Positions 22,180 through 28,074 of a stretch of DNA of 60,043 bases are shown here, in pieces. This DNA comes from Nitrosopumilaceae archaeon AB1(1). GTDB taxonomy: Archaea > Thermoproteota > Nitrososphaeria > Nitrososphaerales > Nitrosopumilaceae. Position 1 is the first letter of the stretch; every line of letters begins with the position of its first letter. Location: NCBI GenBank assembly GCA_033471095.1, contig CP136752.1, positions 909,727-969,769 on the forward strand. The letters run 5' to 3'. Under the pieces are notes generated by a model, which saw nothing but the letters and a program-made list of their open reading frames with translations, made no database searches and was not told the origin of the DNA. A program made the translations under genes and the position numbers.

Positions 22180-22557
22180 ATGACTGAATTAGAGCACAAA
22201 TATGAGATTAAAATTCTTCAAACTGATGCTCGTCATACATTCAGTCCAGATTTGAAAAATGAGCTAAAATCTGGTGGCATGATGGATGAGAAGGGTAAAT
22301 TGAAGATCAAAGGTGTGAGTGCCAAAATGCTCAAGAAAATGAAACAAGAGTATGTGGATTGTCCTGTTTATAATGATAAAATATCATTTATTCAATGTTT
22401 TATCTGCCCTAATTTTCAAAGTAGAGTAATGGGCAGTGTTTTATGCAAGGGAGATCCTTTGCCCAATTCTACCACAAGCAATTCTGATACTAGTAAAAAA
22501 TCTAGTAAAAAAAAACCTATTAAAAAAACTAAAACCAAGAATACCAAACAAACATAA
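22180..22557 (+). CDS. hypothetical protein with Cys cluster and Lys-rich tail
   Basis: A 125-residue protein. Residues 1-90 look folded and contain four cysteines (in DCPVYND, QCFICPNF and LCKGDP) that could bind a metal. Residues 94-125 are a low-complexity Ser/Lys/Thr tail typical of nucleic-acid contacts. It starts 16 bp upstream of the coiled-coil TFE-beta-like gene and may share its transcript. No family is recognised. Confidence 0.6.
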   Translation: MTELEHKYEIKILQTDARHTFSPDLKNELKSGGMMDEKGKLKIKGVSAKMLKKMKQEYVDCPVYNDKISFIQCFICPNFQSRVMGSVLCKGDPLPNSTTSNSDTSKKSSKKKPIKKTKTKNTKQT

Positions 22558-22584: not shown

Positions 22585-23712
22585 ATGGCAAAATCTTCTA
22601 CGTCAAAGAAAAATAGTTCAAAAATTAACCAGAAAAACCGTTTCAAACTTGAATCTGAAAAAAAAGCCCGTATGAAATTAGCAGAAGAACAACATAAAAA
22701 ACGACTCAAAGAAGAGACTCAACGTAAAGCTAGACGACTCAAAGAAGAGACTGAACGAAAAGCTAAACGAGCTAAAGAAGAATCTGAAAAAAAAGCCCGT
22801 ATGAAATTAGCAGAAGAACAACATAAAAAACGACTCAAAGAAGAGACTCAACGTAAAGCTAGACGACTCAAAGAAGAGACTGAACGAAAAGCTAAACGAG
22901 CTAAAGAAGAGTCTGAAAAAAAAGCCCGTATGTTAAAGGTAGAGCGAGATCGTAAAATACGTAAACAACAAGAAGCAAAAACAAAGCAAGAAAAACAAAA
23001 ACAACTTCGTGTATTGAAACAAGAAAGGGAAAAAGCTAAGCGTAAACTTCTTCAAGAACGTAAAATTCGTCAAGCAAAAATAGAACACGAGCGTATGATA
23101 AAACGGAAAAAACTAGAATCTGAAAAATTGGCTAGACGAAAACAACGTGAATCTGAAAAGAAAGAACGTGATATGAGAAAGGCAGAAGAAAAGAAAATCA
23201 AAGATGAGAAACGTGCATCTGTTCTTGCTGCACGAGAAGAGACACGTCGTAAAAAAGAGTTGTTGAAGGTAAAAACACTCGAAGAAGAACTAGAAGAAAA
23301 ACTATCTACTCATGAAATAGAGGGTTTTCAATTAGAACAAGTGGATATGGAGTTGCTAACAAATCATATTTGTGATGTTGTCATGGGTTATGACGCTGAG
23401 GGTATACTTCAAAAAGAATTATGGGACATGCTAAAATTAGATGATAAAGATGGTGCAAGACTAGCTCTTAAACTTGAACGCATGGGTCTAATTGCACGTA
23501 AAAAAATTCTTGTTGATGGTAGATGGACATACAGATTAATTTTAAAGAAAACACCTGTGAGTACTATATCTCTTCTAAACGCACCATGCCTTACATGTGA
23601 AGTTGAGCAAAAGTGCACATCTGATGGTGATATTAGTCCAAAGACTTGTCAAGTTTTAGAGGATTGGGTATTTATCACAAAAAAACGACTGAAAACACAT
23701 GAAACTGCTTGA
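22585..23712 (+). CDS. RPC34/TFE-beta-like winged-helix Fe-S protein with long charged coiled coil
   Basis: I choose ATG 22585 (MAKSSTSKKN); the frame opens at TTG 22573. About 230 residues are an uninterrupted Lys/Arg/Glu coiled coil. The C-terminal 125 residues resemble a winged helix (ILQKELWDMLKLDDKDGARLALKLERMGLI, then a RWTYRLIL wing), followed by four cysteines spaced C-x2-C-x5-C-x10-C. A winged helix plus C-terminal cubane-type Cys cluster is the layout of RNA polymerase III subunit RPC34/39 and archaeal TFE-beta, known in Thermoproteota and Thaumarchaeota. The coiled-coil extension is not part of that basic layout. An A/T-rich TATTTAAAAT element precedes the start. Confidence 0.6.
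   Translation: MAKSSTSKKNSSKINQKNRFKLESEKKARMKLAEEQHKKRLKEETQRKARRLKEETERKAKRAKEESEKKARMKLAEEQHKKRLKEETQRKARRLKEETERKAKRAKEESEKKARMLKVERDRKIRKQQEAKTKQEKQKQLRVLKQEREKAKRKLLQERKIRQAKIEHERMIKRKKLESEKLARRKQRESEKKERDMRKAEEKKIKDEKRASVLAAREETRRKKELLKVKTLEEELEEKLSTHEIEGFQLEQVDMELLTNHICDVVMGYDAEGILQKELWDMLKLDDKDGARLALKLERMGLIARKKILVDGRWTYRLILKKTPVSTISLLNAPCLTCEVEQKCTSDGDISPKTCQVLEDWVFITKKRLKTHETA
22651..22929 (+). repeat. 129-bp exact tandem duplication inside the coiled-coil gene
   Basis: Positions 22651-22779 and 22780-22908 read identically over all 129 bases (43 codons). A third partial copy runs to about 22929 with one mismatch. Inside the unit, 33-nt subrepeats encode an 11-residue period (RLKEETQRKAR, RLKEETERKAK, RAKEESEKKAR), which suits a hendecad coiled coil. 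The absence of synonymous change implies a recent duplication. Confidence 0.85.
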
Positions 23713-24295
23713 TGCTAGACGTGATTATTATCGACGTCTTGCACGTGAACAAGGATATCGTAGTAGATCTGCCTTTAAACTAAAGGAACTGAACAAGTCT
23801 TATCGTCTTATTGGTCCGGGATTTAGTGTTCTTGATCTTGGCTGTGCTCCTGGTGGTTGGTTGCAGGTTGCATCTCAACTATCTGGGAACCGTGGTATGG
23901 TCATGGGTGTTGATATGGATTATGTAGAGGAACTTCCAAATGTATCTATTATTCGCCGTAACATTTCTGATGTTGAAAATATTGTAGATGACGTTCTGGA
24001 GTACTTTGGAAAACGTATCAATACTGTAATTTGTGACATGTCTCCTCAGGTTACTGGTAGATGGTCTGTAGATCATGCTGTACAAATCGGATCAAATTAC
24101 GATTGTGTGCAAGTAATGGACAAAGTTCTTACAAACAAGGGAAATGCATTATTCAAAGTGTTTGATGGAGAATATACGTTAGAATTTAGAGATTTTGTAA
24201 AGAAAAAATTCAGCAAAGTGATACTAACAAAACCCAAAGCAAGTCGTAAGGCTAGTAGCGAACTATACTTTGTATGTCTAGGCTATACGTCATGA
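23699..24295 (+). CDS. rlmE: rRNA 2'-O-methyltransferase, RrmJ/FtsJ family
   Basis: A 198-residue enzyme that methylates a ribose of large-subunit rRNA (U2552 in E. coli numbering). The catalytic K-D-K-E set fits: Lys in SRSAFKLKEL, Asp in CDMSPQVTGRW, Lys in ALFKVFDGE and Glu in ASSELYFVC. SAM motif I is VLDLGCAPGGW. Its ATG lies 14 nt inside the preceding gene, so the two are coupled. It overlaps convergent trm1 by 13 nt. Confidence 0.92.
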   Translation: MKLLDARRDYYRRLAREQGYRSRSAFKLKELNKSYRLIGPGFSVLDLGCAPGGWLQVASQLSGNRGMVMGVDMDYVEELPNVSIIRRNISDVENIVDDVLEYFGKRINTVICDMSPQVTGRWSVDHAVQIGSNYDCVQVMDKVLTNKGNALFKVFDGEYTLEFRDFVKKKFSKVILTKPKASRKASSELYFVCLGYTS

Positions 24296-26117: not shown

Positions 26118-26786
26118 TCTTTATCAAATGGTTCTAAATTAATAATCTGTATAATTTCAAATTTCTTTTTTAATTTTTTTATTTCCTCATCTACCACTTG
26201 TCTTGGATTCTTTATAACATTGATACTTCTAGTCTTTATTACCATAAAAAATATCCCATCTTTTTTTAGATATCTCTCACAATTTGCAATTGCTATGTTT
26301 GTCTGATCTGGCTGAGCAATATCTGAATAAATTATATCTACAGTACCATAAATTCCTTCATACGTCTTGGGCTGTCTTGCATCATGAATTATGGGTATGA
26401 TATTCTTTCTATATGATACTACTCTGTCTAGAAATTCTCTCAGCTACTCTACTTGTATGTTCTACACCAAAAATTATTCCCTGTGAACCGACAATATCTG
26501 ATATATGACTTACAGTTGTACCTGTAGACGCTCCCAAGTATAGCACTGATGAACCTCTTTTGAATGGAAATAACTCTAATTTGTTCATTATACATGCTGC
26601 AAGTTTACTTCTAAATGGATCCCATACTCTGTATTCAATTTTATTTTTTAAAACAAGTCTTTCGCCATATACTTTATTTCCTGGCACATAATTTTCAGTT
26701 GCAATTTGTTCTCTTCCATCTGCTCTGACCCATACAAAATTATAATCATCGTGAATCAAATCGTTTTCTCTTTTTACCTTTAACAT
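26084..26786 (-). pseudogene. flpA: fibrillarin-like rRNA/tRNA 2'-O-methyltransferase, broken by a one-base frameshift
   Basis: Catalytic subunit of the box C/D RNP. The first part starts at ATG 26786 and has the SAM motif VLYLGASTGTTVSHISD and ends its frame at IISIS-like nonsense after GVEHTSRVA. One base too many near 26437-26444 shifts the frame. The +1 frame then continues open for about 116 codons with the rest of fibrillarin: NIIPIIHDARQP, TVDIIYSDIAQPDQ, MVIKTRSINV and the final PFDKDHFMVVA, stopping at 26084. The catalytic Asp, Lys and His are intact in that part. The enzyme is expected to be essential, so a sequence error, a very recent mutation or +1 recoding must be considered. 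Confidence 0.85.
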
Positions 26787-28074
26787 TTTTCGTTCTCTTG
26801 TTATCTCTAGTATCATATCTACGTTTTTGTCCTCCGTCTCTATCGTTATGTCTACCTCTATCTCTATCGTTATGTCTACCTCCGTCTCTATCGTTATGTC
26901 TACGTCCGCCTCTGTCTTCACCACGTCTAAATCCCCTGTCCCCAAATTCTTGTCTCATCTTTGGCTCTGGTGGTTCTTTGTACTTTTCAGTAATTTCTGT
27001 TACTCTGATGTTTAAACTATCTAGAAGTGTTTGGTTTAAACCTCCTCCGTGTTCATCTACCCTGGATGCAATTGCCGCCTTTGCAGCTACTGCTCTTGCA
27101 ATTTTTCCACGTTGCCATCGTGGAGCTGCATGTACCACTGCATGTTGGAATAAGATTCCGTGTTTTGGTGGCTGGGATCCTGTCTTTAGTGCTCTGAATA
27201 ACGCCTTTTCTGCCCCTAATACTTGAATGGTACTTGATGGCATAGTGGATAACCTTCTCAAACTTCCTGCTCTTGTCAATATTCTTGCCCCCACAGTCGC
27301 ACCTAGTCCAGCTGTAAGATTAGGGGCGACCTTTACCATCTGTGTCTCTACATGCTCTTCTAAAATTTTTCGTTGTTCATATAAATCTAAAATATGTTTT
27401 GAAATATTTTGTATTATTTTTATACTGTTATCATCAATCTCCCCGCCTCTGCTTTTTTGTTTAATTACCTCTAGCATTTGAATTTTAGATTCTGGAAATC
27501 CTGCATCTTTGAACACTTGTTCTGTTAAATCTTCTTTTCTTCCAGCAAACGCAACCTTGGCATATCCGGGTATACTGTCTACAATATTTTCAAGTTCTGG
27601 AAAATGCAAACCATACCATTCTTTTAATCTTGCACTTAATGCATTAGTAATTTTATCCAACTCATCTAGAGAACTTATTGCCTGAATTACATGCAAATCT
27701 ACACTACTAGATGCAATAGTTATCTTGGTAGATGATAACTCTAGTGCAAAATCGTGTAATTTTTTCATTGCATCATTTTGATCATTTGCAAAACCTGCTT
27801 TGATTAATAATTCTGGTTTTGAGAATTGAATATCATCAATTTGTACTTCGGTCATCATACGTACATCTAGATCTTTTCTTTTCAAATTTTCGTACAAATT
27901 CAAATCGTTTACTAGTGCGACATCTTCTTGTGTTCTACACCATTGATTCAACTCTTTCATGCCTTCTTCTTTTACTTGCATGAATTGGCTTACTCCATTA
28001 AACGCAAATGATTCCACATATGTGTCATCCTTGGTAACTATTATGCCCAATTCTGTCATGATGATATTATTCAT
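26746..28074 (-). CDS. nop5: Nop5 (Nop56/58-like) core protein of box C/D RNPs
   Basis: A 442-residue scaffold that links L7Ae, the guide RNA and fibrillarin. The N-terminal domain binds fibrillarin, the central helices form the coiled coil, and the NOP domain contains GLGATVGARILTRAGSL and ALKTGSQPPKHGILFQHAVV. The last 60 or so residues are an Arg/Asp/Gly-rich tail with three 8-residue repeats, then Lys/Arg. The 3' end overlaps flpA by 41 nt; the pair forms one transcript, as in other archaea. Confidence 0.93.
   Translation of the reverse strand: MNNIIMTELGIIVTKDDTYVESFAFNGVSQFMQVKEEGMKELNQWCRTQEDVALVNDLNLYENLKRKDLDVRMMTEVQIDDIQFSKPELLIKAGFANDQNDAMKKLHDFALELSSTKITIASSSVDLHVIQAISSLDELDKITNALSARLKEWYGLHFPELENIVDSIPGYAKVAFAGRKEDLTEQVFKDAGFPESKIQMLEVIKQKSRGGEIDDNSIKIIQNISKHILDLYEQRKILEEHVETQMVKVAPNLTAGLGATVGARILTRAGSLRRLSTMPSSTIQVLGAEKALFRALKTGSQPPKHGILFQHAVVHAAPRWQRGKIARAVAAKAAIASRVDEHGGGLNQTLLDSLNIRVTEITEKYKEPPEPKMRQEFGDRGFRRGEDRGGRRHNDRDGGRHNDRDRGRHNDRDGGQKRRYDTRDNKRTKNVKGKKRKRFDSR
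26838..26909 (-). repeat. 24-bp tandem repeat, three copies, in the nop5 tail
   Basis: The plus-strand motif CTCTATCGTTATGTCTAC starts at 26838, 26862 and 26886, an exact 24-bp period. On the coding strand it gives three copies of the octad RHNDRDGG/RG. The array is protein-coding rather than a CRISPR or intergenic repeat. Confidence 0.8.

Follow-up and report, generated by a model that had tools for sequence, protein, structure and literature searches.

A family-specific, lysine-rich repeat tail on the sole TFE-beta of a Nitrosopumilaceae archaeon, and its possible role as a nucleic-acid anchor

Judged from its sequence, the open reading frame at 22585-23712 (+ strand) of the window, the whole 60,043-nucleotide stretch of the Nitrosopumilaceae archaeon AB1(1) genome that we analysed, is the sole TFE-beta gene of its genome, encoding the beta subunit of the TFE alpha/beta initiation factor, and we consider it reasonably probable that its family-specific, polycationic repeat tail acts as a non-specific nucleic-acid anchor at promoters. 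In relatives, S. solfataricus among them, TFE-beta and TFE-alpha bind the RNA polymerase clamp and assist DNA melting (PMC4495717, PMC5861453). The frame starts with an ATG at 22585, its stop codon ends at 23712, and it encodes a 375-residue RPC34/RPC39 orthologue with single-copy counterparts across the class; an alternative TTG start lies 12 bp upstream of the ATG, and the antisense strand carries stops throughout in that frame. The N-terminal Lys/Arg/Glu tail (residues 1-230, 22585-23274), delimited by its composition and by Lys-rich tails at the homologous position across Nitrosopumilaceae, is followed by an acidic connector, TLEEELEE...EIEGFQ..VDM (residues 231-254, 23275-23346), which alignments show to be kept in nearly all Nitrosopumilaceae tails. 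A winged-helix domain comes next (residues 255-320, 23347-23544; modelled by AlphaFold2 as HHH-beta-beta, with matches to MarR and the RPC39 winged helix), and then a four-cysteine cluster (23587-23649). A first-pass annotation of this DNA had described the reading frame, its roughly 230 K/R/E-rich residues, the C-terminal winged helix and the four cysteines, all of which are borne out here.

Several independent comparisons identify the C-terminal core. Once the tail was removed, the core matched the Pfam family RNA_pol_Rpc34 with E=3e-4 and 20.7 bits, which is under the curated cut-off of 28.4, alongside the winged-helix families MarR and B-block_TFIIIC; the full-length 375-residue protein gave no Pfam match, because the low-complexity tail masks the core. 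Individually, 21 of 27 orthologues matched Pfam Rpc34 (best E=1.7e-6), and a profile built from the 27 retrieved human Pol III RPC6/RPC39 with E=4.6e-7. When the core was modelled with AlphaFold2 (pLDDT 83) and searched with Foldseek, the top four matches were all chain P of human Pol III (RPC39), the best with E=3.2e-4, probability 1.00 and a TM of about 0.42, and the solved RPC39 winged helix, 2dk5, was also among the matches. Across the 27 diverse orthologues, C335, C338, C344, C355 and one Trp are invariant, and the cysteine spacing, C-x2-C-x5-C-x10-C, satisfies the published signature of archaeal RPC34 orthologues, CxxC-x(3-5)-C-x(4-10)-C (PMC2770514). A 4Fe-4S cluster that is required for TFE alpha/beta dimerisation is held by these cysteines in TFE-beta of S. 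solfataricus and in human RPC39, and in relatives TFE-beta is established to contact TFE-alpha through this FeS domain (PMC4495717).

The genome contains one TFE-beta match only; a search for a second found none, with PF05158 appearing elsewhere only at E >= 0.04. Across the class, the gene was found in 353 of 400 genomes, usually as one copy, and some genomes outside Nitrosopumilaceae (e.g. G037, G029, G271, G320) hold a second, more divergent TFE-beta-like match. TFE-alpha is encoded in the same genome (PF02002, 58.8 bits, above the cut-off, at G000:C1:621529-621810). Just ahead of the second zinc-ribbon CxxC, the reading frame of that gene (G000:C1, about 621,500, - strand) is interrupted by a stop and an ambiguous base (N); the gene is probably intact and the interruption an error of assembly.

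Gene order is also that of the family. An FtsJ-type rRNA 2'-O-methyltransferase gene (23699-24295, + strand; Pfam FtsJ, E=5e-48), whose start overlaps the TFE-beta stop by 14 bp, lies directly downstream on the same strand, an arrangement found at 144 of 144 Nitrosopumilaceae loci, and Trm1 stands beyond it on the opposite strand at 135 of these. This agrees with the RNA-modification gene context reported for thaumarchaeal RPC34 orthologues (PMC2770514). Directly upstream, at 22180-22557 (+ strand), is a 125-residue ORF with three cysteines and a Lys-rich C-terminus; we rejected it as a conserved partner, having found no relative at other orthologous loci with upstream sequence, so that, from sequence comparison, it is perhaps a genus-level orphan. 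Taken together, the Rpc34/RPC39 matches, the cysteine pattern, the single copy, the accompanying TFE-alpha and the FtsJ/Trm1 context lead us to TFE-beta. The first-pass annotation had assigned the C-terminal domain to TFE-beta/RPC34 and had proposed a profile search against TFE-beta/RPC39; that search gave a family match, Pfam, the RPC39 profile and Foldseek all support the assignment, and the separate canonical TFE-beta that it had named as evidence to the contrary is absent from this genome.

The tail of the window protein is unusual in composition. Residues 21-232 lack Pro altogether and comprise 54 K, 34 R, 41 E, 19 A and 18 L, and the net charge is about +45 over 241 residues in spite of the many Glu. 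In a background sample of this genome (240 kb plus the window, 279 ORFs), only four ORFs hold a 46-residue stretch in which K+R make up 35% or more, the TFE-beta tail being the most basic. Within the window, a NOP5-like protein gene (26409-28074, - strand), overlapping a fibrillarin-like ORF (26409-26945) in another frame, carries a repeat tail rich in Arg and Asp (RGRHNDRDGG...), and its probable equivalent in G003 (L213:14981-16273) has a comparable basic repeat tail. G003 also holds three ORFs of 96-134 residues (L216:13705-14088, L214:6949-7353, L211:15300-15590) whose Lys/Ala/Pro repeats (e.g. KRAAPKRKTAAKK) recall histone H1 and resemble the TFE-beta tails in style. The window tail is largely built of 11-residue units (KEETxRKAxRx; lag-11 self-identity 76/201), which also make up most of a recent 129-bp (43-residue) tandem duplication detected by TRF at 22651-22932 (2.2 copies, 99% identical).

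The first-pass annotation had read this region as a coiled coil, which would make it a two- or three-stranded structure dimerising TFE-beta. A long helical region rich in K/E/R and devoid of Pro fits such a structure; however, hydrophobic residues are few, and we found no heptad period, with no power at 3.5 (p=0.18), 3.6 or 7.0 (p=0.86), while an 11-residue hydrophobic periodicity (p 0.008) is accounted for by the sequence repeat. What the tail does have is the i,i+4 pairing of opposite charges typical of single helices, with 68 such pairs against about 36 in shuffles over the whole tail, and 27 against 17.7 expected (p 0.002) in the half that is not duplicated. AlphaFold2 modelled one continuous helix of 207 residues (residues 15-221, 22627-23247), with 10-residue block pLDDT of 81-98 over residues 31-210. 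Because of the i/i+4 salt-bridge spacing, the lack of a heptad and the 11-residue repeat, the tail of this genus is predicted to be a charged single alpha-helix of about 200 residues, a class of structure whose sequence marks have been described and which serves as a rigid connector (PMC5812594). The coiled-coil reading is thus unsupported, and such a helix is lacking in Nitrosopumilaceae as a whole; a coiled coil that dimerises TFE-beta seems extremely improbable. Like ER/K domains, the window tail combines a K/R/E composition, opposite charges at i,i+4, no heptad and a predicted lone helix; unlike them, it is strongly net positive, sits on a basal transcription factor and has relatives whose tails look non-helical.

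Comparison of N-terminal length in relatives, which had been suggested as a check, showed the tail to be a family trait. All 82 usable complete Nitrosopumilaceae TFE-beta proteins carry one, of 46-865 residues (median 107), an 83rd having been left out since its frame is disturbed by a run of N, and among 41 orthologues spread over 22 further families of the class none has a tail longer than 20 residues. The tail is therefore no one-off fusion, and a join of TFE-beta to an unrelated protein was rejected, as the tail is unique in the genome and equivalent tails stand at the same place family-wide. A wrongly called start preceded by non-coding repeats is likewise unlikely, given that frames continue without a stop for as many as 865 codons and that repeat periods are mostly multiples of three. 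Most tails in the family are rich in K/P/A or K/T/S and appear disordered, and the i,i+4 excess was absent from eleven other tails examined. The longest belongs to a GC-rich genome (G022, locus L033), where a TFE-beta of 1005 residues bears an 865-residue Gly/Lys/Ala/Pro tail of GGKKAAPA units with a net charge of +111.

The main rival of an anchoring role is neutral repeat expansion, in which a 5' minisatellite without selected function grows and shrinks by slippage and is tolerated since the TFE-beta N-terminus faces solvent. Much of the repeat evidence is what this explanation expects. In a set of 97 sequences, some of them identical, 91 tails but just 2 cores contained tandem arrays, and 285 of 316 array calls had periods divisible by 3. 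Among 175 pairs sharing 96% or more core identity, 173 had tails of unequal length; 38 of the 121 unique cases had a contig that broke off within the tail, as expected of repeats, and no repeat sequence is conserved between genera. Three observations nevertheless argue against it, so that we regard it as somewhat unlikely. Tail-less proteins number 0 of the 82 usable family members. Charge sign is maintained as well: the tail carries a net positive charge in 81 of the 82 and a charge of zero in the remaining one, and charge density shows no correlation with GC (rho -0.12, p 0.28) over core GC of 0.30-0.65. For the same reason the tail was rejected as a by-product of AT-rich codons (AAA Lys), members with GC of 0.53-0.65 keeping positive tails, the GGKKAAPA repeats being an example. 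Finally, neighbouring repeat units differ by 68 synonymous and 80 nonsynonymous changes, for a pooled dN/dS of about 0.34 that draws on few changes within non-independent arrays; differences per synonymous site thus exceed those per nonsynonymous site, which we take as a rough sign of possible protein-level constraint on the tail.

The first-pass annotation had also suggested that the tail could link initiation to another machine or to nucleic acid. In the former case it would be a mechanical spacer or docking arm joining TFE to another protein, such as the RNA polymerase stalk, chromatin or an RNA-processing complex, and in this genus the arm would possibly be a rigid single alpha-helix with a length, when fully extended, of about 30 nm. 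The predicted 207-residue helix and the known use of single alpha-helices as rigid connectors (PMC5812594) suit this idea, and the RNA-modification enzymes next door (FtsJ/Trm1; PMC2770514) are the one observation pointing to another machine. The Pro-rich or Gly/Ala/Pro-rich tails of other genera, however, are unlikely to be helical, so rigidity is not the shared property, and this protein lacks a conserved N-terminal docking module; we therefore hold a docking arm to be decidedly unlikely.

A link to nucleic acid is plausible from sequence. What the tails share is positive charge and reach, and from this we infer that they bind DNA or RNA non-specifically around the promoter. In the anchoring mechanism that we favor, the tail would project outward where the winged helix begins and bind DNA, or nascent RNA, electrostatically and without sequence preference, and this binding would keep TFE close to promoter DNA or chromatin. 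Since nothing but net positive charge and reach would matter, sequence and repeat number could drift freely, and the disordered Pro/Ala/Lys tail of one genus may have been swapped for a stiff helix in another. Counting against an anchor, the length spread of 46-865 residues also fits weak constraint, and the window tail, with its many Glu, has a lower net positive charge per residue than a histone-like tail. We think it very unlikely that minisatellite copy number in tfeB goes further and tunes the hold of TFE on DNA genome-wide, as a fast evolutionary dial on promoter melting.

Like Sulfolobus TFE-beta (tfeB), it has a winged helix followed by CxxC...C...C, occurs in single copy and is accompanied by an encoded TFE-alpha, whereas the Sulfolobus protein consists of winged helix plus FeS domain only (PMC4495717, PMC5861453) and has no counterpart of the charged N-terminal tail of about 230 residues. 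With human RPC39/RPC6 (yeast C34), a Pol III subunit, it shares the FeS/Cys domain and the winged-helix fold; unlike TFE-beta here, the eukaryotic protein has tandem winged-helix domains and no Lys-rich N-terminal repeat tail. Thaumarchaeal RPC34 orthologues, for example that of Cenarchaeum symbiosum (core at residues 244-362), share the core, preceded in them by a low-complexity region in the same position (PMC2770514). The first-pass annotation had placed the tail outside the known factor, which is correct only in part: it holds relative to Sulfolobus but less so for this family, where the tail is carried by every usable protein and where Blombach et al. 2009 had mentioned, without further description, a low-complexity N-terminal region in thaumarchaeal RPC34 orthologues (PMC2770514). 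Beyond that remark, we found no later literature on thaumarchaeal TFE-beta tails, or on Lys-rich tails or repeats in Nitrosopumilus. While the low-complexity region itself was already known, what appears to be new, relative to the papers searched, is that it is a family-wide, polycationic, hypervariable and repeat-built tail, Lys-rich throughout the family, with a single-helix variant in this genus.

Nitrosopumilaceae rank among the ocean's most abundant archaeal families. In this family, an otherwise conserved basal initiation factor has gained a seemingly mandatory yet hypervariable polycationic tail, at which genome assemblies often break. In vitro work with Sulfolobus TFE-beta may thus overlook a part that Nitrosopumilaceae always carry, and, if the tail is a DNA anchor, it would be a simple example, in archaea, of general transcription being tuned by variable tails.
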